Below, one piece after another: positions 13,051 to 51,474 of a stretch of DNA of 64,000 nucleotides. Every line of letters begins with the position of its first letter. Positions within the stretch are counted from its first letter, which is position 1. The position numbers and the translations under genes are program-made. Source of the stretch: Candidatus Gastranaerophilales bacterium (lineage in GTDB: Bacteria; Cyanobacteriota; Vampirovibrionia; Gastranaerophilales; Gastranaerophilaceae); contig CALUTI010000004.1 in assembly GCA_944323695.1 (NCBI GenBank), positions 1 to 64,000 on the forward strand, written 5' to 3'. Under the pieces are notes generated by a model. It worked only from the letters and a program-made list of their open reading frames with translations. It did no database searches and was not told where the DNA came from.

Positions 13051-14457
13051 ATGAGCATACAAACAGCAGAACAATATGAAGCCAACGAACAGTATGAACT
13101 GGCTTTTGAAGAATATAAAAAAGAACACGAAAAACGTCCTAATGATTTGAGTATAACAGAACGCCTCGGGCATCTGGCTATGATGCTTAATAAAAAAGAC
13201 GAAGCCGCCGATTATTATACACAAATTTTAGAAAAAGATATGACAAACACGCTTTGTTATGAACAACTAATGGACATCTACGTTGATACAGACAAATACA
13301 AGTACTATATCTATCGCGGGAACCTTCATTCTGTTGAGCATAAACTTGAGCAGGCAATAAACGATTACAAAAAAGCGCTTAACCACGCCGAAAGCGAACG
13401 CGATATTGTAATGACACGTTTTACGCTTGCAAATTTATACGACCAGACAGGAAATACAACAAAAGCTATTGACGAGTTTTTGAAAACACTTGAATACGAA
13501 GATAATCACGAAGAAGTTTTCCTCAAACTTGCCGATTTATACATAAAAGAAGATATGCTTTCAAGCGCAATTGATGTTCTTGAACGCGCACAAAAACGTT
13601 TTGATACGGATAACATAAGAGAAAACCTTGCAAAGCTTTACCTTCGCAATAATCAGCCCGACATGGCAAAAGATTTAACAAAAGATGACCTTCTTAAGAT
13701 AAAATGCATGCTTGAATCAGGCGAAAAAGATGATGCCTACAAAAAGCTCTGCGAAATCGAATTTATATACAAAAACAATCCGGAATACTATGCTCTAAGA
13801 GCGCAATACTATTACATACAGGAGGAATACGACAAAGCGCTTGAATACGTAGAAAAATACAACGAGCTTAACAGAAATTCAGCACTGGTATACCAGATGC
13901 GCGCGTTGATTTATGAAAACAAAAACGACGACTACAACGCACATCTTAACTGGGGCAAATTCAATCTGGTAAGGGGCAACAAAGATATTGCGGTAAATGA
14001 ATTTTTGAACGCATTTCAATTAAAAGAAGATGACGTTGATTTGATGAACACGCTTGCGGTTCTTCTGGAAGAAACCGGCGATAAAAACCACGCGGTTGAA
14101 TTCTGGGAAAGAATTGCAAAAGCTGAACCGACAAATAAAAAAGCTCTGGAAAAGCTTGCGGATTTCAGAGAAAATCTCGGCGACTACCGTGCCGAAGCAG
14201 ATTACCTTGAAAAACTTTATGAACTTGATAAACGCAACGCACTTGTTATAAGAAGGCTGGCGCAGGTTTATGAAAAGATTAAAAACAAACCTGATGCCGT
14301 TGAATTTTATAAAAAGTATCTTGAACTTGCAAAAGGCGCTCAGGATTACGAAAAAATCCGGCAAAAACTCCAAAAACTTGAACACACGGAACTTGTTCAG
14401 GAAGATGAAGGCTTGCTTGATAAAATAATGCGATTTTTTAATAAGGAGAATTTATGA
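13051..14457 (+). CDS. Tetratricopeptide repeat protein
   Basis: 468 aa made almost wholly of TPR-like helical pairs, for example AIDEFLKTLEYEDNHEEVFL, AIDVLERAQKRFDTD, ALEYVEKYNELNRNSALVYQ and AVEFYKKYLELAKGAQDYEK. There is no signal peptide or TM segment, so it is probably a cytoplasmic scaffold. The C-terminus DEGLLDKIMRFFNKENL looks like a short amphipathic tail. It overlaps the next small gene by 4 nt (ATGA). Partner and role cannot be read from the sequence. Confidence 0.85.
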   Translation: MSIQTAEQYEANEQYELAFEEYKKEHEKRPNDLSITERLGHLAMMLNKKDEAADYYTQILEKDMTNTLCYEQLMDIYVDTDKYKYYIYRGNLHSVEHKLEQAINDYKKALNHAESERDIVMTRFTLANLYDQTGNTTKAIDEFLKTLEYEDNHEEVFLKLADLYIKEDMLSSAIDVLERAQKRFDTDNIRENLAKLYLRNNQPDMAKDLTKDDLLKIKCMLESGEKDDAYKKLCEIEFIYKNNPEYYALRAQYYYIQEEYDKALEYVEKYNELNRNSALVYQMRALIYENKNDDYNAHLNWGKFNLVRGNKDIAVNEFLNAFQLKEDDVDLMNTLAVLLEETGDKNHAVEFWERIAKAEPTNKKALEKLADFRENLGDYRAEADYLEKLYELDKRNALVIRRLAQVYEKIKNKPDAVEFYKKYLELAKGAQDYEKIRQKLQKLEHTELVQEDEGLLDKIMRFFNKENL

Positions 14458-14845
14458 AAGTTACCGGAATAAATTCAACACAAACACCCTCTTTCGGAGT
14501 AAAAATACCAACGAAAGAACTAAAGGTTTCATATGCAAATCTACAACAACAGACAACAAATTTGCATCATCAGCCATTACAGTAACAAAACTTTCTAACG
14601 GAAAAATTCAAGGTCTGCATACACCTGTTATGGACATGTGGCAAACCTGCTGTGATTTTGCCGAAAAAATCAGAGCAAAATATCCGGAATTGAAAGAAGC
14701 TGCGGATTCCGTTGATAAATATTCAGTAAAAATTTTAAATAAGAAAAAAATATCTATTCCGGAATATTTACAAAAAATTGACAGAAAACTTAAATCTTTT
14801 GAAAAAACTCTCGGCAAAGAATACGATATAAAAGATTTTGAATAA
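14454..14845 (+). pseudogene. Frameshifted small gene with N-terminal SFG motif
   Basis: Frame 1 begins MKVTGINSTQTPSFGVKIPT with a good AAGGAG and ends at a stop at 14583-14585. A second frame is open across the same place and continues as TTTDNKFASSAITVTKLSNG through HTPVMDMWQTCCDF to a stop at 14845. Both halves look coding, so a one-base slip near 14538-14545 best explains them. The restored protein would be about 130 aa with a helical, Lys/Glu-rich C-terminus. It could be a decayed gene, an assembly error or, less likely, programmed frameshifting. The start resembles that of the 49262 protein (MKVEKING). Confidence 0.7.
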
Positions 14846-18059: not shown

Positions 18060-18557
18060 ATGCCATTCAGATACCGTCTACAAAAAGTCCTGGATTTCAG
18101 AATCCGTAAAAAAGAAGAGCAGCTGCTTGTAGTACAAAAAGCCCAGCAGGCAGTGTATATAGCAGAGGAAAATATCAGAAAAAACGAAGCTGAAATTCAG
18201 GCAACAAAGGACGGTCTGAGAAAAGCTGATCCCATGATGTATGAAGCATATGACAAATATCTTAATCATCTTTGGGAAAAAGCCGAAGAACTTGAACAAA
18301 TAAGACAGCAGGCACAACAACAGCTTGACATTGAAAAAGAAAAACTTGTAAAGCTTGAGCAGGCAGTCAAAGTTCTTGAAAAACACAAAGAGCGGCACAG
18401 AGAAATCTATATAGAAGAAGAAAAAGCCGCCGAATTAAAGCAGTATTCCGAGCTCGGGGTAGTAAGATATTTCCGGCAGAATCAGGAAAAACTCGAGCAG
18501 GAAGAAAAAGAAATTCTTGAAGAATTACAAAAACTAGAGGGCGAAAATGGATATTAG
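18060..18557 (+). CDS. fliJ: Flagellar FliJ-family coiled-coil protein
   Basis: Soluble component of the flagellar type III export apparatus that works with the FliI ATPase. The N-terminus MPFRYRLQKVLDFRIRKKEE is a classic FliJ start. The remainder is one long Glu/Lys/Gln coiled coil. I chose ATG 18060 because it matches the family start; an upstream in-frame ATG at 18039 adds seven residues with no support. It overlaps the next gene by 11 nt, forming an operon with two more flagellar genes. Confidence 0.85.
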   Translation: MPFRYRLQKVLDFRIRKKEEQLLVVQKAQQAVYIAEENIRKNEAEIQATKDGLRKADPMMYEAYDKYLNHLWEKAEELEQIRQQAQQQLDIEKEKLVKLEQAVKVLEKHKERHREIYIEEEKAAELKQYSELGVVRYFRQNQEKLEQEEKEILEELQKLEGENGY

Positions 18558-19398
18558 TTCAACATCATCAGCGACAGCAACAGCAACGGAAGCAAGCACA
18601 TCTTCGCAAAGTCAAAAAACTTCCTCAAAGAGCAATTCGTCATTTAAAGACGAAATGAAAAAAGTTTCCGAAACAGAAAACAAGGAAACAGAAAAAACCG
18701 AGCAGGAAACCGAACAAAAAACAGAAGCTGTTGATAACAAAACTGATGATAAATCTAATGAGCAAAAAGATCAGGAACAAAACCAGAATCAGACGCTCAA
18801 AGGCGAAGTCAATATGATTGCAGGTCAAAATCGACAGCCGGTAATGCTTAATAATGTACAGAATATGCAGAATAATAATATTCAGACGCTTCTGGATGCA
18901 AATATGCAGCTTTCCAATATAACAAAGATGGGCAGCGGGCTTTTGGAAGCCAAAGTCGATTATTCAAATATAAATATGTCGGCAGATGACGCCAAATTTT
19001 TCTCTGATCTGGTTCAAAACACCGACAAAACACTTCAGGGTGTTGTGAATGATTTAAAAAACGGCGTTGAACAAAATGTTCAAAAGGCAGCTCAGCACGT
19101 AAAAGTTTCATCAACCTTGATGACGGCATTAAACGATGCTGTGAAATCAAACCAGCCCGTCAGAATTAACCTTGACAAAGATGTCTCCATTATCTTAAAA
19201 GTTGACAAAGACGGCGCTTTGTCAGCAACATTTATCCCCGGGGACAAGGCTGTTGAGGAATACTTAAGACAAAATATTTCCACACTTCGCCAGAGATTTG
19301 ACGAACAGGAACTTTCATACAGAGACCTGTCATATTCAAGGCAAAAACAAAATCAGGAACAAAACAGAAGAAATAATAAGGAGAAGGATAATGAATGA
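18547..19398 (+). CDS. FliK-like flagellar hook-length control protein
   Basis: The N-terminal ~90 residues are low complexity (Ser/Thr/Gln/Glu), the middle is Asn/Gln-rich, and the C-terminal ~75 residues (PVRINLDKDVSIILKVDKDG, ATFIPGDKAVEEYLRQN, ISTLRQRFDEQ) have the strand-strand-helix pattern of the Flg_hook (FliK C-terminal) domain that triggers the export specificity switch. Position between fliJ and a hook/rod gene supports the call, although the sequence is divergent. 283 aa. Confidence 0.65.
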   Translation: MDISSTSSATATATEASTSSQSQKTSSKSNSSFKDEMKKVSETENKETEKTEQETEQKTEAVDNKTDDKSNEQKDQEQNQNQTLKGEVNMIAGQNRQPVMLNNVQNMQNNNIQTLLDANMQLSNITKMGSGLLEAKVDYSNINMSADDAKFFSDLVQNTDKTLQGVVNDLKNGVEQNVQKAAQHVKVSSTLMTALNDAVKSNQPVRINLDKDVSIILKVDKDGALSATFIPGDKAVEEYLRQNISTLRQRFDEQELSYRDLSYSRQKQNQEQNRRNNKEKDNE

Positions 19399-20227
19399 TT
19401 CATTTATCACGGCACTGAATACGCAGTTTGCGACAAACAACTGGATGGATGTAATCGCGGATAACATGACAAACGTCTACACCCCCGGTTTCCGTGAAAA
19501 ACAGGTGAACTTCAAAACCTTTTTGGGCGGCGCAATTGCAGATGACTATAACAAAAATTTAGGTCAGGGTAAATCAACCCCCGGTACCTCCACTGAAAAC
19601 CTATTTTTGGAAGGCAAAGGATTTTTCCTTGTGAAAAATGCCGAAGGTAAAAGTATCTATACCCGTCTGGGTGAATTCAAATTTGACAGCGAAGGTGTTT
19701 ACCGCGACACACACGGTAATACAGTGCAGGGGTATATTTTGAATGACAAAGGCGAAATTATGCAGGGCACCAAATCCGTAAGCTCTGATTTATACCAGCA
19801 GACAGCACTTAAAGGCGGCTCGCTGGATATTCCGACAACAAACATCAAAATGTGGATTGACCCGAATAACGGAAAATACCTCGGTAAATATGATGATTAT
19901 GAAATAAAAGGCGACGGAACAATTTACGGAAAAGCAGACGGCGGAAAACGTATGGTGCCGCTTTATAGAATTACCACAAGGAATTTCCACAATGCGGCAG
20001 GTCTGTATGAATTTGAGGACGGTCAGTTTATAGAAACAGCAGAATCCGGCAAGCCCGTAATCGGTTACGGCGAAATCAGATCAGGGCTTTTGGAACTTTC
20101 AAACGCTGACTTCAAGGCCAATATTTCATATTACCAGATGGCAAAACTCCAGATGGAAATAACAAATAAACTTATTTCAACCAACAAAGAATTGCTGCAG
20201 GAAGCCTTGAGGCTTGTCGGCAGTTAA
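19391..20227 (+). CDS. Flagellar hook/basal-body rod protein (FlgE/F/G family)
   Basis: Axial flagellar protein exported through the type III apparatus. The N-terminal ALNTQFATNNWMDVIADNMTNVYTPGFREKQ is the flg_bb_rod motif. LFLEGKGFFLVKNAEGKSIYTRLGEFKFDSEG is the hook/rod core, and the C-terminal helix (SYYQMAKLQMEITNKLISTN) closes the coiled-coil. 278 aa is closest to FlgF/FlgG length. ATG 19391 is chosen because AAGGAG lies 7 nt upstream. It overlaps the FliK-like gene by 8 nt. Confidence 0.88.
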   Translation: MNDSFITALNTQFATNNWMDVIADNMTNVYTPGFREKQVNFKTFLGGAIADDYNKNLGQGKSTPGTSTENLFLEGKGFFLVKNAEGKSIYTRLGEFKFDSEGVYRDTHGNTVQGYILNDKGEIMQGTKSVSSDLYQQTALKGGSLDIPTTNIKMWIDPNNGKYLGKYDDYEIKGDGTIYGKADGGKRMVPLYRITTRNFHNAAGLYEFEDGQFIETAESGKPVIGYGEIRSGLLELSNADFKANISYYQMAKLQMEITNKLISTNKELLQEALRLVGS

Positions 20228-25418: not shown

Positions 25419-28232
25419 ATGCCGTCAGTTCAAAAAATCACATTTAGAGGTGAGAATACAAATCTTTTAAACAAAAATTTAAACAAATCAGGCTTTACCC
25501 AGCCAACAGTAATAGCAGCACCGGCGTCAACACCTGTGCAAAATCAGGATACGGCACCGGAAAAACAACCGGTAAAAAAGAAGCTGTCCGGTGAAAAAAT
25601 TGCCTATGTAAGTTCCGCAATTGCAATTGCATCTCTGGGCATTTCCACAATATATGCAGCTAAAAACGGGAAATTATCCAAAAAAATTGCAGAATTATCA
25701 AAAAGCGGTAAAAATCTGTCCGCTGATTTAACAGATAAGGTAGAAAAAGAGCTGAGTAAGTTTAAAGATATGTCTAACGGTATAAACTCAAAAATAGAAG
25801 GAGTTAAAAAGAGTGTTAAAGATCTCGGCAAATGGCAGGATGGTCAGATAGAAGGTGTACGTAGTGATTTATCGGCACAGATTTCACAGGTAGCATCTTC
25901 GGTAAAATCACCTAACGCACAGGAAATTCTGGTCTCTCCTGTAAATGTAAACGGCATGGAATTACAACTTGCAACAGTTATGAACGGATACGGCAAACAT
26001 ACCGGAGAACTGGAAAAAGCACTACGGCAGGAATCTACAAAACGTATATTTGGTATTGTTGACCGCTCCGGAATGGTTCCGCGTGATGATATTATGATAA
26101 GAGTACCGACATCTGAATTTAAAGGTTTTAGAAGCACAGGCGGCATGTCAGCTGTTCCCAAAGAAGTTATTGCTAATTTAGGCGGCATAATCAATCAAAA
26201 ACAAAATGCACGCCTTGTCGTTGATATGCCTATGTATCTGGGGCAGGTGGAAGATAATGCATATTCCGCAATAGTGAAAGCTAAAGATAATGCCTACAAA
26301 TATATTTTGGATACCGACAAAGGCAGAAGTGTAATCGCAAATCTTGAGCATTTAAATACTATACAAATTCCTATTTATAATGATAAGGGCAAAACAAATG
26401 AACTAGTTGATATTTACATAGCAAGAAATAATACCCAGGAAGTTGACTTTAATCTTTTACACCAATGGCTGGAAAAGAATCTTGCCCAGGAAGTTGACAC
26501 AGCATTAAAAGCAGGGGAACCGCTATCAATAGATCGCAATATGTTTTCAATTGAATATAATCCGGCTAAATCACAAAAAGTGACTGCCAAAATAAAATAT
26601 GATGCTGTATTCTATAAAAGCGATAAGTTCAGAATGGACGGTCCGGTAATAGACGGAAAAGCTAAAAATATATATAACGATCTGACACACGAAGCCGGCG
26701 AAACTGAAAGATTCATGTACTTTGATAAATTTTTCTATGAAACACTTTTAAAAGGTGCAGAAACATCAAATGAAAATTTAAGAGCGGATTTAATCATAGG
26801 AAACGATTGGCAGACGGGCGGAATCAGCGCAATGATGAAAATGCTGACAACAACAAAAAAATACTTTGGTCTTGATCCCAATGTTGCTGACAAAATATAT
26901 AATATTCCGGTGATAACTATAATGCATAATGCAAGACTTGCAGGTGCAGTAAATCATAGTCAGGCAAAACTGCTTAATATACTATTCGGAGAACATTCCG
27001 CAATGATTACCCGAAATGCCTATATGCCAAAAGAAGCCTCCGTTAAACCTGAAGCCTTTAACGCACTGTTCCACGGTACTTCATTTAACCCGCAGACAAT
27101 GGCTGCAGCGTATTCAGATGTTGTTATACCTGTATCAAAAGGTTACGGACATGAAATGGCATCCCACAGCGGATTTGGAATGGCAAACCACGACATTTTC
27201 AGGATGCGGGCAAGATATCACGAATTTAGCAGCATGGAACACTTGAAACATATTGCAGAAAAAAACAATCTTGACGCGAATCTGGTATCGGATGTTAATA
27301 TTGCATACAGACCGATTACAAATGGTTCAGATAAAGTTAACAACACATTAACGGCAAATAAACTTCATGAAATTGAGACTAATTTGTCTTTAAAACCTAA
27401 TTCCTTAAGACTTTTAAGCGAATGTAACTCCATACCGGAATGGCACATGCATAATAAAGAAGTTTACCTGAATAAGGTAATAAATGATTTAAATATGGCA
27501 AAATCCGGACGCGGGAATCCCATGAATATTGAACTCGCAGAAATGACAAATCTTGACGGTGTAACAAAAGACACTATGGTAGTGTCTACTGCAGGCCGAG
27601 TTGTTGACCAAAAAGGTCTGGATATTTTTGCGGAAGCAATTGACGAATTTTTATCAAGACATAATGGCGAAGATTATCCTGTATTCTACGCACAGGGTGT
27701 CGGCGACAAGGTATATATTAATAAATTGCTTGAAATAAAACAAAATGCAGCGAAGAAATACGGACAAAAAGCCGCTGATAGAATAGTTTTTGCAAGGTTA
27801 TTCAACGAAGCAGGCAGATATGACGGATGCAAACTAATGTCAGACTTTACGGTCATGTCAAGCTGGTTTGAACCTTGCGGTCTGGTACATAAAGAAATTG
27901 CAGCCTTCAGCGGTTCAATACCAATCGTCAACAAAGTCGGCGGATTAACAGACGGATTAACAGACGGAGTTAATGCAATTTTCTCTGAAATTCAACCGAA
28001 ATATGAAAAAGATTTTGATCCGGAAGCACTTGCATTTAACAGAAAGGCTTTTGCTGATGCGATTGATAAAGCGTATAATCTGTTCAAGGATAAAGATAAA
28101 TTTAATTACATGCTTGAAAATTCATACAATGCAGACCACAGCTGGCTGAAGCTGGGCGGGCCTATGGAAGAATATGCAAGATTATTCACTGATTTAAAAG
28201 TACTTAAACCGGAAGTTTTACAACACACATAG
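25419..28232 (+). CDS. Membrane-anchored GT5 (glycogen/starch synthase-like) glycosyltransferase
   Basis: 937 aa, about twice a normal GlgA. The N-terminus MPSVQKITFRGE carries the F-x-G tag, then a Pro/Gln-rich stretch, a TM segment at 61-81 (KIAYVSSAIAIASLGISTIY) and a coiled coil to ~150. A divergent GT5 core follows: FRSTGGMSAVPKEV replaces the usual KTGGLGDVVGALP, and the C-terminal Rossmann domain has STAGRVVDQKGLDIFAEA and SWFEPCGLVHKEIAAF with PIVNKVGGLTDG. The Lys of KTGGL is not conserved. It may use ADP-glucose or another nucleotide sugar; substrate is unknown. AAAGGAG precedes the ATG. Confidence 0.8.
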   Translation: MPSVQKITFRGENTNLLNKNLNKSGFTQPTVIAAPASTPVQNQDTAPEKQPVKKKLSGEKIAYVSSAIAIASLGISTIYAAKNGKLSKKIAELSKSGKNLSADLTDKVEKELSKFKDMSNGINSKIEGVKKSVKDLGKWQDGQIEGVRSDLSAQISQVASSVKSPNAQEILVSPVNVNGMELQLATVMNGYGKHTGELEKALRQESTKRIFGIVDRSGMVPRDDIMIRVPTSEFKGFRSTGGMSAVPKEVIANLGGIINQKQNARLVVDMPMYLGQVEDNAYSAIVKAKDNAYKYILDTDKGRSVIANLEHLNTIQIPIYNDKGKTNELVDIYIARNNTQEVDFNLLHQWLEKNLAQEVDTALKAGEPLSIDRNMFSIEYNPAKSQKVTAKIKYDAVFYKSDKFRMDGPVIDGKAKNIYNDLTHEAGETERFMYFDKFFYETLLKGAETSNENLRADLIIGNDWQTGGISAMMKMLTTTKKYFGLDPNVADKIYNIPVITIMHNARLAGAVNHSQAKLLNILFGEHSAMITRNAYMPKEASVKPEAFNALFHGTSFNPQTMAAAYSDVVIPVSKGYGHEMASHSGFGMANHDIFRMRARYHEFSSMEHLKHIAEKNNLDANLVSDVNIAYRPITNGSDKVNNTLTANKLHEIETNLSLKPNSLRLLSECNSIPEWHMHNKEVYLNKVINDLNMAKSGRGNPMNIELAEMTNLDGVTKDTMVVSTAGRVVDQKGLDIFAEAIDEFLSRHNGEDYPVFYAQGVGDKVYINKLLEIKQNAAKKYGQKAADRIVFARLFNEAGRYDGCKLMSDFTVMSSWFEPCGLVHKEIAAFSGSIPIVNKVGGLTDGLTDGVNAIFSEIQPKYEKDFDPEALAFNRKAFADAIDKAYNLFKDKDKFNYMLENSYNADHSWLKLGGPMEEYARLFTDLKVLKPEVLQHT

Positions 28233-32724: not shown

Positions 32725-34680
32725 TTACAAAGCACCGCCGCCGTCAAGGAAGTAATCATAATGTCTTACGTCATCATAATTGTTTATATATTCGGCCTCA
32801 ACTTCTTTTTGAACCTGAGGAACAACCTTGGCAGCTACAGATCTGCTCTTAAGTAACTTATCAATATTAGGTTCTAATGTCAATTCAAAGTGGAAACGTC
32901 CGTATTTTCTGTCTTGTTCATAAACATTATTAATCAACGGATAGCCCCAATACAATCTGGCACTCAAATCACCCGGTAATTGAACCCTTAACCCCATACC
33001 GACTGATGCAAGGAAATAACTTCCTCCTGCATAGTCTTGATTTGCAGCAGGAAATACACCTGCGTGATCGGCAAATACTACACCCTGAACATATTTACCT
33101 AAGAAAGGAATTTTCTCACCTGTTCTGGGGCTTGTAATTTGTCTTGGCAATAACGGAAATATCAAATCACCGCTGATAAAGTAGCCGTTCTTACCAATCA
33201 TTATACCTTCCGAATATCCTCTGGTGGTTAATAAACCGCCGGCCTGGAATTGATCGATATACGGAATATCCTTACTGTTTGGAATAATTTGATAGTTTGA
33301 ACGAAGTTGTCCATATACGCCGTGTGAAAAATCATGAATTCTATACACGCTGCCTGAATATTTGAAATAGCTTGATCTGCTGTCAAATATCGGGAATGCC
33401 ATAGACGCATTCTGGTTCAAATACCAAATACCACGTGCGGTATCTTTTCTTATATTAAACCCGATATCAGCACTGGTAACCTGATCTGTCGGGAAAAATC
33501 TTGATGATAAAGGTCCAAGTATGTCCATTCCGGTAAATACACGTTTGTAATTCAATGAACCGTAACCTTTAAGTTCAAACCCTTGTGTACGTTTTATCGG
33601 TTGTGAATAATACAATGAATAAACATAAGATCTCGTTCTTAATCCATATGGTGAATAACCGCCCCATTTTACTTTAGCAAATGTAGATGCATAGCTAAAC
33701 CCTACACGACCGTCATATTTGTTAACCGGAATATTATAATCAAAGAACGGGCTTATTGCACCGCCGCTGAAATATGAACCTAAGCTCATTCTGTCACGGT
33801 AACCGAACAAGCTGTCGGCAATCAACATCGGACCGCCTCTTAATTTACCTGTCTGGTACCTTCCGGCGTTATCCATTACACCGACAATATGAAACGGGAA
33901 TTTTTCATCTGCTGATAATTCTATATCAGTTGTCCCGGGCTTTTCCCCCGCCTTTAAGTTTGCTGAAAGTTTTACACCTTCATTATATCTGTTAAAATCA
34001 AGAACGTCTTTTTCCAATTTTACAATATCAAACAATTCATGTTCTTTATCCGGAATTCTATCGAGAATATAATTTGATTTTGTCCATTTATTGCCGTCAA
34101 TTGTAACTTTACCGATACGGCTTTCGATCAAATCTATATATATAGCACCGTTTTCAACCTGCTGTTCGGGAAGATATGCCTTTGCAGTCACAAAACCTTT
34201 TTTTGCATAAAGTCCGTTAATCTCATCAATCATTGCCTGAATATCAGAAATGAAGAGGTTTTTACCTGCGTATTTTGAAATAATCGGTTCAATTTCTTCT
34301 TTTGTTAATATTTCAGAAGGTGCAACCTCAATAGAATCTACATAAACACCCTTTGTTTCAAGTTCTTCAACCTTTGCGCGTATAACATCTCCTGAACCTT
34401 CCGGAGCGCCTTTAATTACAGTGCTGCCTTTAGTTCCGCCCTCTTCACGCTGCTGTTGATACTGTTCATAATCGATTTGAACATTTTGACGCTGTTCTTC
34501 AAATTTTCTTGTGTCAAAATCGTGCTTTACATTTGAACCTGCATCACGCTGTATAATTTCCTGAACTGATTGAATATTATCCAAAGGCCCGGCTGCAAAT
34601 ACATTTTGGGGCATACAACACAGCGATGCAAGCGCAAGAACTGCGCCTAAATATATTCTTTTTGAGATCACCTTTTTCAT
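32725..34680 (-). CDS. Two-partner-secretion (ShlB/FhaC-type) outer-membrane transporter
   Basis: 651 aa. A signal peptide ends near NVFA-AGP. A Gln/Glu-rich helical plug-like region (to ~100) is followed by POTRA domains (~115-260: VYVDSIEVAPSEILTKEEIE, ESRIGKVTIDGNKW) and a beta-barrel, with the substrate-lock motif TRGY in GLLTTRGYSEG. The apparent last strand GRFHFELTLEP is followed by about 50 more residues rich in charged residues and ending DGGGAL rather than the terminal Phe seen in most barrels. No TpsA exoprotein is adjacent. It may instead be an Omp85 relative with another substrate. Confidence 0.8.
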   Translation of the reverse strand: MKKVISKRIYLGAVLALASLCCMPQNVFAAGPLDNIQSVQEIIQRDAGSNVKHDFDTRKFEEQRQNVQIDYEQYQQQREEGGTKGSTVIKGAPEGSGDVIRAKVEELETKGVYVDSIEVAPSEILTKEEIEPIISKYAGKNLFISDIQAMIDEINGLYAKKGFVTAKAYLPEQQVENGAIYIDLIESRIGKVTIDGNKWTKSNYILDRIPDKEHELFDIVKLEKDVLDFNRYNEGVKLSANLKAGEKPGTTDIELSADEKFPFHIVGVMDNAGRYQTGKLRGGPMLIADSLFGYRDRMSLGSYFSGGAISPFFDYNIPVNKYDGRVGFSYASTFAKVKWGGYSPYGLRTRSYVYSLYYSQPIKRTQGFELKGYGSLNYKRVFTGMDILGPLSSRFFPTDQVTSADIGFNIRKDTARGIWYLNQNASMAFPIFDSRSSYFKYSGSVYRIHDFSHGVYGQLRSNYQIIPNSKDIPYIDQFQAGGLLTTRGYSEGIMIGKNGYFISGDLIFPLLPRQITSPRTGEKIPFLGKYVQGVVFADHAGVFPAANQDYAGGSYFLASVGMGLRVQLPGDLSARLYWGYPLINNVYEQDRKYGRFHFELTLEPNIDKLLKSRSVAAKVVPQVQKEVEAEYINNYDDVRHYDYFLDGGGAL

Positions 34681-41273: not shown

Positions 41274-41738
41274 CTATGCCGCAACATTTATTCCTGATAA
41301 ATCTTTCCACATAGCTTCAAGTGAAGCAACATCCTGCTTTTTCAATTTTTGTACGCTGTAATTGTCCGCAATTGACGTAAAACCTGATTTAATGGCGCGG
41401 CCTGCACCTGCAAAATCAATAGAAATTTCCATTGAACCGATTTCGTTCAATTTGTTCATTGCAGATGAAAATCCTTCTTTCATTCTGTTACCGAATGCAA
41501 CGACTGATTCAATTCCTTTACGGAAAGTCGGGAATGCATCACCGATTGAACCTACAAATGCGCTTAATTTTAATTTGTCTTTTAAAGACGGTTTTGCCGC
41601 TTTTGTTTCAAACACATCTGCCGTTAAAACATTACCCTTGAATGTTGATGCCGCAAACGGGTTTGATGAATGATTTACTGTCTTTCCGATTTTAATCGGG
41701 GTGTTTAGAACCTGACCAATCTTTGCAATTATTGCCAT
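41274..41738 (-). CDS. Unknown protein with N-terminal STFKG tag
   Basis: 154 aa, family not recognised. The first 45 residues (IIAKIGQVLNTPIKIGKTV then FAASTFKGNVLTADVFE) end in an F-K-G motif like those in the 14454, 25419 and 49262 proteins. The rest is helical (LKLSAFVGSIGDAFPTFRKG, VVAFGNRMKEGFSSAMNKL) and alternates Gly/Ala/Lys without a TM segment. A GAGAGAGG run lies 3 nt... upstream of the ATG region (41741-41748 read on the minus strand). It forms a unit with the HEAT-like gene. Confidence 0.65.
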   Translation of the reverse strand: MAIIAKIGQVLNTPIKIGKTVNHSSNPFAASTFKGNVLTADVFETKAAKPSLKDKLKLSAFVGSIGDAFPTFRKGIESVVAFGNRMKEGFSSAMNKLNEIGSMEISIDFAGAGRAIKSGFTSIADNYSVQKLKKQDVASLEAMWKDLSGINVAA

Positions 41739-49261: not shown

Positions 49262-50770
49262 ATGAAAGTAGAAAAAATTAACGGAAATTATGCGGTACAA
49301 CGCGCACAAAAGCGCAGCCAGTCGCCTAATTTTACCGGCGGTATAGTTTCTCTGGCCGATGAAATTACCAATTCACTTCCTGCAAAAAATGCTTTGACAA
49401 AGATGAAAAAGCTTGAATGGTTAAAAGGTGAAATCGGAGGTATATTACTAACCGCCATAGGCACAGGTTTGGTTGCACCTGTATTCATAGGATTTAACCC
49501 GTTTGTAAAAGCCCCGAAAGGATCTTCAGAAGAAAAGAAAAAAGAAGTTACCAACACAAAATTATACACTGCAATGAGGCAGCCTATATCAGCCGTACTT
49601 TCAATATTATTCCAGGTAGGAGCCTTAAAACCGATAGACAAGGTTCTGGATAAAGTATTTAATAATGAAGAATATTCAAAAAATTTAAGTATAAATGTAG
49701 ACCAATCAGCCTTGAACAGCAAATCATACTTAAAAACGATTGTAAAAGAAGATTTGAAAGAAAAAGGAATAACAAAACCATCAATATTTGCAGGATTCAA
49801 AGAAGGATTCAGCAAGGTCAAAAAACAGCGCAAAGAATTTAATGCACTTGTAGACGAAACAGTAAGCAAGAAAGCTGAAGCACAGCTGCAGCATGTAACG
49901 GATACATTCCGTCAAACCGGCAAAATCAAAGTTGGCAAACGTAATCTTAACAATGAAACATTGGCCGGCTTAATCAATAACCAGATAGATGATTATATAT
50001 CAGATGCAACAAAATTAAAAATTGACAATAACGGTCTTGCCTTCTACACGGAAAGAGCAAAAACTCTTATGGAAAACGAACACCACATAAGAGAAATCTT
50101 CAAAGATATTCCGGTAGAAGAAATAGATAAAACAACAGATGCAAAAGAGCTTCAAAAATTATACAAACAAACAGACTCAATTTTAAAAGGAGCACTGGCA
50201 AAAGAACGTGATCCTAAGGTTCAAAAGCTTATTCAGGAAATTCTTGATAAACCTGAAGACATTAGAGCAAGCCGTGTTGCAAGAACTCTTCATCGTATAG
50301 ATACAATAAAAGATATCTGCAAAGAGCATTACAACCCTGAAGACTATCTTAACGCAATGTCATTAAGAAATTCAGAGCTTGATAAGACAATCACAAAATT
50401 AAAATTAAATAAAATAGCCGAACCTGCGAAAGCTACAACGGCAACAATACAAGATGCTATGAAACAGTTAATTGACAACTGCCAGTTCAAAACATCCGAT
50501 AACCTGTTAAAATCAATTCTACATGACACAAACACATTTGATTCAGACGGTGAAAAATTAACCAAAAAAATATATAAAGATGTAACAAAACTCTACAAAA
50601 AATTTGTAGAAAACAATTATAAAGCTCCGAACCAGATTATAAAAATTCTGATCGGCGTATGCATAACATTACCGATAACCTGCAACGCTTTAAACTGGGT
50701 ATATCCAAGATTCATGGAATTGGTATTCCCAAAACTTGCGGGTGTAAAAAAGGACGGAGGTGATAAATAA
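49262..50770 (+). CDS. Unknown membrane protein with N-terminal NFTGG tag
   Basis: 502 aa, family not recognised. MKVEKINGNYAVQRAQKRSQ leads into SPNFTGGIVSLADEI, the F-x-G tag. Hydrophobic segments lie at about 60-80 (GGILLTAIGTGLVAPVFIGF) and 460-485 (IKILIGVCITLPITCNALNW), with a weaker one near 105-120. Between them is a ~330-residue Lys/Glu/Asn-rich helical domain. There is no classical signal peptide. It ends exactly at the first base of the next gene, so the two are cotranscribed and probably act together. Confidence 0.7.
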   Translation: MKVEKINGNYAVQRAQKRSQSPNFTGGIVSLADEITNSLPAKNALTKMKKLEWLKGEIGGILLTAIGTGLVAPVFIGFNPFVKAPKGSSEEKKKEVTNTKLYTAMRQPISAVLSILFQVGALKPIDKVLDKVFNNEEYSKNLSINVDQSALNSKSYLKTIVKEDLKEKGITKPSIFAGFKEGFSKVKKQRKEFNALVDETVSKKAEAQLQHVTDTFRQTGKIKVGKRNLNNETLAGLINNQIDDYISDATKLKIDNNGLAFYTERAKTLMENEHHIREIFKDIPVEEIDKTTDAKELQKLYKQTDSILKGALAKERDPKVQKLIQEILDKPEDIRASRVARTLHRIDTIKDICKEHYNPEDYLNAMSLRNSELDKTITKLKLNKIAEPAKATTATIQDAMKQLIDNCQFKTSDNLLKSILHDTNTFDSDGEKLTKKIYKDVTKLYKKFVENNYKAPNQIIKILIGVCITLPITCNALNWVYPRFMELVFPKLAGVKKDGGDK

Positions 50771-51474
50771 TGCCGGTAAATAAAATATTATCAGCAACCT
50801 CCAAAGTTATCGGAAAAGTTGAAAAAAGCAAACCCATGCAATGGGCAGAAAAGAAATTCAATCTGGATACGGAAAAAGCATTAGGACTCGCTACCGTAAC
50901 GTCAATTGTAATTAAAGACGGTGTCGGCTGCTACAAATATGTAACTCAAAGTTTAAATAACAAGAAAATTCCTGATGAAAAACGTAAATTTGTTGCCGCA
51001 TTGGATTTAACAAACGGTATATTAATGATTACGGCGCAAATAGCAATGTACTTTGCAATGAGAAAATACAGCGGACCGTTATTTGAAAAATTATTCCAAA
51101 AATCATTCAATCCTGAAATGTCTAAAAACATTGCGTCCAGAATTCGTATGAAACAGGTACAGGCAGGTGAGCCGGCATCAAGGAAACTTCCTATTGAAAA
51201 AGAATACAATAAAGTAAAATCCGACGGATTAGATGTATTCAAATTTGTAGCTGATATTGCGGCTGCAACAATTATAGGAAAACGTGTCATAGTACCTTGT
51301 ATAGCAACACCTCTTGCGGCTAAGGTTCAAAAGAAAATGGAAGCTTATGAGCACACACATCATCCGGAAAGATTTACTGAACCCGTAGCAGAAGAACAGC
51401 CTCAAGTTGGTGAAAAACTTGATATAACAACCCACAACACGAACTTGCTAAAAAGATACTACAATTATCACTAA
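50770..51474 (+). CDS. Unknown membrane protein paired with the 49262 product
   Basis: 234 aa, unrecognised. Segments at ~37-52 (ALGLATVTSIVIKDGVGCYK), ~80-100 (NGILMITAQIAMYFAMRKYS) and ~158-180 (VFKFVADIAAATIIGKRVIV, PCIATPLAA) could be membrane helices, giving a three-helix protein with a polar C-terminal tail (HTHHPERFTEPVAEEQPQVG). No F-x-G tag. The start overlaps the upstream stop by 1 nt (TAATG). Confidence 0.7.
   Translation: MPVNKILSATSKVIGKVEKSKPMQWAEKKFNLDTEKALGLATVTSIVIKDGVGCYKYVTQSLNNKKIPDEKRKFVAALDLTNGILMITAQIAMYFAMRKYSGPLFEKLFQKSFNPEMSKNIASRIRMKQVQAGEPASRKLPIEKEYNKVKSDGLDVFKFVADIAAATIIGKRVIVPCIATPLAAKVQKKMEAYEHTHHPERFTEPVAEEQPQVGEKLDITTHNTNLLKRYYNYH

Follow-up and report, generated by a model that had tools for sequence, protein, structure and literature searches.

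Encapsulins, microcompartments and contractile injection systems each gather unrelated cargo in one structure by means of a short peptide located in a disordered terminus. Early flagellar subunits carry an N-terminal hydrophobic signal and, separated from it, a gate recognition motif (Bryant et al. 2022, PMC8983047); in FlgD, these elements are residues 2–5 and 36–40 (PMC8983047). Type III effectors, whose bodies are varied, have a disordered N-terminus in which Ser and Pro are frequent and Leu and acidic residues scarce (Arnold et al. 2009, PMC2669295), and the type III signals known so far have no common peptide sequence (PMC8983047). Cyanelle transit peptides, which belong to a system of cyanobacterial descent, are N-terminal leaders with one indispensable Phe (PMC2222254).

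The N-terminal tag described here is carried by unrelated proteins of a Candidatus Gastranaerophilales bacterium and was noticed in a 64,000-nt stretch of its genome (contig CALUTI010000004.1, positions 1 to 64,000; hereafter the window). Like the early flagellar signals, it consists of two separated elements. However, the flagellar gate recognition motif is small and hydrophobic, is not F-x-G and belongs to rod and hook subunits (PMC8983047), whereas the tag is found on enzymes and membrane proteins and the FliK-like and FlgE-like proteins of the window have no such box. With type III effectors, the tag shares the character of the leader and the variety of the bodies; effectors have composition alone in common, with no fixed residue, whereas the tag has a fixed Phe. 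The single Phe recalls cyanelle transit peptides, but these are organelle import signals of another cell type and contain no F-x-G. The cargo sequences of encapsulins, microcompartments and contractile injection systems also differ from the tag. No description of it was found in the open-licence full texts searched, and none of the listed titles on secretion systems of Gastranaerophilales suggests one. We consider it likely that this is a sorting tag, and the observation proves broader than in the earlier note on the window, which had proposed an F-x-G tag shared by four proteins.

A two-part tag on unrelated proteins

The four sequences in question were found at the positions given for them (49262, 14454, 25419 and, on the minus strand, 41738). 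A 502-aa helical protein encoded at 49262..50770 (plus strand) begins with MKVEKINGNYAVQRAQKRSQSPNFTGG. Its two-part tag occupies residues 1–27 (49262..49342) and comprises the start box MKVEKIN, a spacer and the end box PNFTGG, with F24-T25-G26 at 49331–49339; orthologues are present in 29 of 40 relatives. The glycogen/starch-synthase-like protein (GT5; 937 aa, 25419..28232, plus strand; Pfam Glyco_transf_5, 1.6e-12) starts with MPSVQKITFRGE and has the box ITFRGE, with FRG at 25443–25451. On the minus strand, a small protein of 154 aa (41274..41738) has the leader ...SNPFAASTFKGN, in which the Phe is F33 (FKG at 41634–41642) and the box is embedded in a longer conserved stretch, NPF...SFKGNVLTADVF. 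The fourth gene, 14454..14845 (plus strand), encodes the N-terminus MKVTGINSTQTPSFGVKI with its box at 14487–14498. This box reads P-S-F-G, with F-G in place of F-x-G; the reading frame is apparently frameshifted near 14540–14560, an apparent assembly error or pseudogene. The earlier descriptions of the bodies needed small corrections: the protein at 25419 is GT5-like with one hydrophobic segment behind the tag, and that at 49262 is helical with two.

The 49262 gene and its neighbour form a conserved two-gene unit of all-helical proteins of no known family (49262–51474 in the window; L161–L235). The partner (50770..51474, plus strand; 234 aa, all-helical in the structure model) is untagged in the window, and the gene order is the same in relatives, one of which (L048) has a partner with a tag-like INFKA N-terminus. 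Neither protein matched a Pfam or NCBIfam family above the cut-off or a PDB fold at E <= 0.001; the fold search with the partner returned weak BAR-like matches with a probability < 0.45.

The tag consists of a start box (consensus M-x-[VI]-x-x-[IV]-[NS]), a disordered, acid-poor spacer of variable length rich in N, Q, S and P, and an end box (consensus [PSVN]-x-F-[TKSQ]-G, with the variants F-G-x and F-x-A/S/N). The formula 'F-x-G' by itself blurs this structure and is a poor detector. All tag counts were made on sampled stretches, which in the own genome covered 864 kb of 1.73 Mb and 604 proteins. Signal peptides and prepilin leaders dominated the raw counts of N-terminal words, which were therefore filtered, the counted proteins having neither a hydrophobic stretch in residues 1–45 nor a prepilin motif. 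Prepilin-like leaders (FTLAEVLITLGIIG...MTIPTL) look very numerous in this genome (L003–L022, L052–L071). Bare F-x-G is weakly N-terminal in the 604 proteins (3.97 per 1000 residues at positions 5–34 against 2.2–2.6 beyond residue 64), a signal too weak for the count to be kept as support for the tag. The pattern [PSNVAQIT]F[TKSQREN]G, by comparison, occurs in residues 2–60 of 33/604 proteins; shuffling those residues gives 14.8 +- 3.6 proteins, and the pattern is found in 1.8% of internal segments. No N-terminal excess was seen for control motifs in which F was replaced by L or Y, or G by D or E. The earlier note had made N-terminal enrichment the test of its own proposal; the test was run, the motif stood above background and the proposal was not refuted.

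The MKV-x2-IN beginning, previously remarked in two of the four proteins, turned out to be general and to co-occur with the F box. A start of the form M-x-[VI]-x-x-[IVLTF]-[NSQ...] was found in 38/604 proteins, 13 of which have an F box, as against 36/566 of the others (odds ratio 7.7, p = 1.6e-6). Two-part examples beyond the window include MKVQQINQQQNFERKNSPNFTG (L007:11541), MQVNKTSSVNFTG (L009:3404), MHITPVNNQSFTG (L014:14569), MQVNAINSFSNVNFEG (L066:8746) and MKVNTISLNNPAFGY (L010:12420). The residues ahead of the box are enriched in N+Q (26% vs 10%), S (12.4 vs 6.1) and P (5.4 vs 2.8) and depleted of D+E (3.2% vs 12.5%) and L (4.7 vs 9.2), and Thr is not enriched. Inspection of half of the own genome led us to accept about 32 tagged proteins, which extrapolates to roughly 40–65 per genome; the excess over shuffles taken alone favours the lower figure of that range. 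The frequency of the tag in these bacteria is roughly one protein in 20 to 30.

Most tagged proteins are without a known family. Those with an assignment include a GH77 4-alpha-glucanotransferase (L070:2589), an HNH protein (L010:12420; a second, L053:6864, lies below the cut-off) and a CheR-like methyltransferase (L071:17300), and tyrosine-phosphatase-like and transglutaminase-like bodies gave matches below the cut-off. The same genome encodes an untagged GH77 paralogue (L021:10579) that starts at its own domain (MRANMSFDEKAVKIIRQALDVLG...), whereas the tagged enzyme has MRILGVNSVVNFQRRPTKKEEP... ahead of the domain. Hydrophobic segments occur in 9/32 tagged vs 64/572 untagged proteins (p = 0.009). 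Four adjacent pairs of tagged genes were counted vs 1.2 expected (p = 0.02), two of them being paralogue pairs. Some tagged proteins are near-universal core proteins, present in 38/40 genomes. Two adjoining tagged paralogues of about 518 aa (L007:9972–13097) occur in 38/40 genomes.

Conservation and phylogenetic range

In an alignment of 55 orthologues of the 49262 protein, F24 is kept in 98% and G26 in 89% of the sequences, and residues 8–21 and 27–38 are mostly 11–45% conserved. An unrelated 518-aa family (23 sequences from several families of the order) gives the same picture: F20, which is among the 20 invariant columns of the protein, is conserved in 100% and G22 in 87%. Of the aligned sequences of the two families, 54/55 and 23/23 contain the box, against shuffled expectations of 24.9 and 13.7; in the 49262 family it lies anywhere between residues 8 and 45. 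Orthologues of the GT5-like protein have the boxes ITFRG, ISFRG, ISFKG, ITFSA, ISFKD and ISFKS, and the 154-aa family retains SFKG within its longer conserved stretch. This variation at the Gly position indicates that G is preferred but not absolute, and that F is the anchor. AlphaFold predicts residues 1–29 of the 49262 protein, the one family modelled, to be disordered (pLDDT < 50).

Every synonymous codon of Gly (four), Thr (four) and Phe (two) is in use in the box. Since synonymous codons vary freely, the constraint is at the protein level, and a DNA-level element was ruled out. The reading that there is no functional tag, but chance F-x-G in N/Q-rich disordered leaders or such a DNA-level element, draws on the fact that half of the matches to the loose pattern are expected by chance. 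However, the Phe is fixed in the hypervariable leaders of two unrelated families, control families show no enrichment, and the motif is also found in a genome group at 50% GC; we regard this reading as extremely improbable, and it is refuted by these results if the orthologue alignments are correct.

The range of the tag was scanned with the refined motif plus acid-poor context, compared with shuffles. The own genome yielded 33/604 proteins (shuffles 13.4 +- 3.6, z 5.5), other genera of the family 17/368 (shuffles 8.5, z 2.8) and other families of the order Gastranaerophilales 22/379 (shuffles 8.6 +- 2.9, z 4.6). The class family f9 was the densest, with 27/126 (shuffles 7.4 +- 2.4, z 8.2), a 21% that is an overestimate, as some f9 stretches were picked around a tagged family. 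The f9 genomes are at 50% GC and have boxes such as VKFGG, PKFSG, LRFGA and VQFGS; the motif thus survives a changed base composition. The remaining class families sampled showed no excess (3/110 vs 3.4 from shuffles). The proposal of a lineage-restricted N-terminal tag on unrelated proteins is therefore borne out, the tag being kept in orthologues and not found in the other class families sampled. The lineage, a non-photosynthetic sister group of cyanobacteria, is common in animal guts.

Flagellar-type export genes and candidate readers of the tag

One aromatic residue kept constant in the otherwise variable, disordered leaders of unrelated proteins looks like a short docking signal, and this reading is well supported; that the N-terminus is a shared targeting or docking signal is, in our judgement, quite probable. 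As to what reads it, the export genes of the order offer a candidate. FHIPEP, the FlhA/SctV-type gate, is encoded in 40/40 Gastranaerophilales genomes and in all seven f9 genomes sampled. Full-length FlhA is of two types, one scoring about 880 bits and confined to some genera, the other about 720 bits and found in nearly all. The own genome has the second type only, beside FliE, FliF and FliH genes; its FlhA is 78% identical to the second-type FlhA of the relative G034 and 38% identical to the first, flagellar-type FlhA of G034. The second FliE/FliF/FliH/FlhA set lies at L296:11159–16997 (own contig C12) and L300:13978–19735, and the second FlhA paralogue was seen in all or nearly all Gastranaerophilales genomes searched, even those without a flagellar-type FlhA. 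Earlier studies took the incomplete flagellar gene sets found in non-motile Gastranaerophilales not to encode a functional flagellum (PMC4040986; PMC3787301); these 'flagellar remnants' may be a separate export system.

Nearly every genome also encodes a stand-alone FlhA C-terminal domain protein, a domain that serves as the docking platform in flagellar export (PMC8983047; PMC10965912). In the own copy (L298:11628–13097), the domain is preceded by an N-terminal part of 150 aa without assignment. A GH77 gene forms an operon with that of the stand-alone domain in 17 genomes of three genera, lying directly downstream on the same strand (its tag was read in the own genome). The product of L298:6934–8571, near the stand-alone domain gene, resembles the ~518-aa tagged paralogues by eye. 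The N-terminus MGMAASQAR[FYL]L.[LI]TAR is common to several large proteins (L006:17136, L008:8048, L018:7854, L018:14287, L011:18659 and L296:4874); the two tested had no Pfam family above the cut-off, and such proteins are possibly axial or secreted parts of the second export system. Export of tagged proteins by a type IV secretion system was rejected, as the VirB4-type ATPase (PF03135) is absent from all the genomes searched (0/40). Nor is the tag a Sec/Tat signal peptide or prepilin leader, since it was counted in proteins filtered for the absence of such features.

We tentatively put forward, at somewhat under even odds as a whole, a two-part targeting signal read by the second type III apparatus. 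The hydrophobic start box, the disordered spacer and the F-x-G end box would together be recognized on unrelated proteins by one shared receptor, which would be part of the second flagellar-type apparatus (FliE, FliF, FliH and FlhA paralogues) together with the stand-alone FlhA C-domain protein. Once docked there, tagged proteins would be assembled at the cell envelope or exported to it. In favour of this are the composition of the leader, which with Ser and Pro up and Leu and acidic residues down resembles type III effector N-termini, and the occurrence of the gate gene in the tag-bearing Gastranaerophilales and f9. Further points in favour are the position of the GH77 gene behind that of the stand-alone domain and the layout of the leader, a hydrophobic beginning followed by a separate docking motif, as in early flagellar subunits (PMC8983047). 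However, the FliK-like hook-length protein (18547..19398, plus strand; Pfam Flg_hook, 4.6e-07) and the FlgE/F/G-like protein (19391..20227, plus strand; Pfam LlgE_F_G_D1, 1.4e-10), both expected substrates, are without the box, although they may represent another substrate class. Family f9, the richest in tags, is mostly without the stand-alone domain, so that strict co-travel of the tag with this domain was not upheld, and families f12 and f14 encode FHIPEP while the few stretches of them that were read contain no tag. Moreover, tagged proteins have hydrophobic segments more often than untagged ones and some are near-universal core proteins, unlike typical effectors.

For these reasons, namely the expected substrates without the box, f9 mostly without the domain and the core-membrane-like bodies, type III docking or export in particular is possible but short of an even chance, and docking on an internal scaffold, the reading of the earlier note, is nearly as likely, if doubtful in its own right. 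A short linear motif would in that case hold cytoplasmic enzymes and membrane proteins at one internal scaffold or membrane domain, with no export, as would suit the over-represented hydrophobic segments, the near-universal core proteins among the carriers, the lack of any Sec-type signal on them and the action of two tagged enzymes, the GT5-like protein and GH77, on alpha-glucans. Against it, no candidate scaffold was identified and the enzyme classes are mixed (HNH, CheR-like and, weakly, phosphatase-like and transglutaminase-like). For several of the observations, a type III export signal is no worse a fit than an internal anchor. A degradation or regulatory tag, bound by a protease adaptor or chaperone, would agree with a short disordered N-terminal motif on unrelated bodies, but its presence on near-universal, structural-looking proteins and on one of two GH77 paralogues makes it very improbable, and nothing in the data points to a protease. 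By analogy with cyanelle import, in which the N-terminal Phe is essential and is recognized by Omp85 (PMC2222254), the motif might be read by an Omp85/POTRA-type outer-membrane protein, and an Omp85/ShlB-type protein is encoded in the window at 32725–34680; the cyanelle signal, however, guides import into an organelle from outside, and there is no path by which tagged proteins would cross the inner membrane, so we consider this very improbable.

Implications for Gastranaerophilales

A shared address would assign dozens of 'hypothetical' proteins to a single system, the receptor of which could then be searched for. The boldest reading is an undescribed sorting code common to Gastranaerophilales and one more family of the class: a dedicated receptor would recognize the MxVxxIN...xF-x-G leader on about 40–65 unrelated proteins per genome, and this receptor may be the FlhA-like docking domain of a second type III export system, filament-less and kept even where flagella have been lost; we offer this fuller picture with less than even confidence. 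If the reader is indeed the second FlhA-type gate, the flagellar gene subset of non-motile Gastranaerophilales (PMC4040986) would be a working secretion apparatus with a candidate list of cargo, and not a flagellar remnant.
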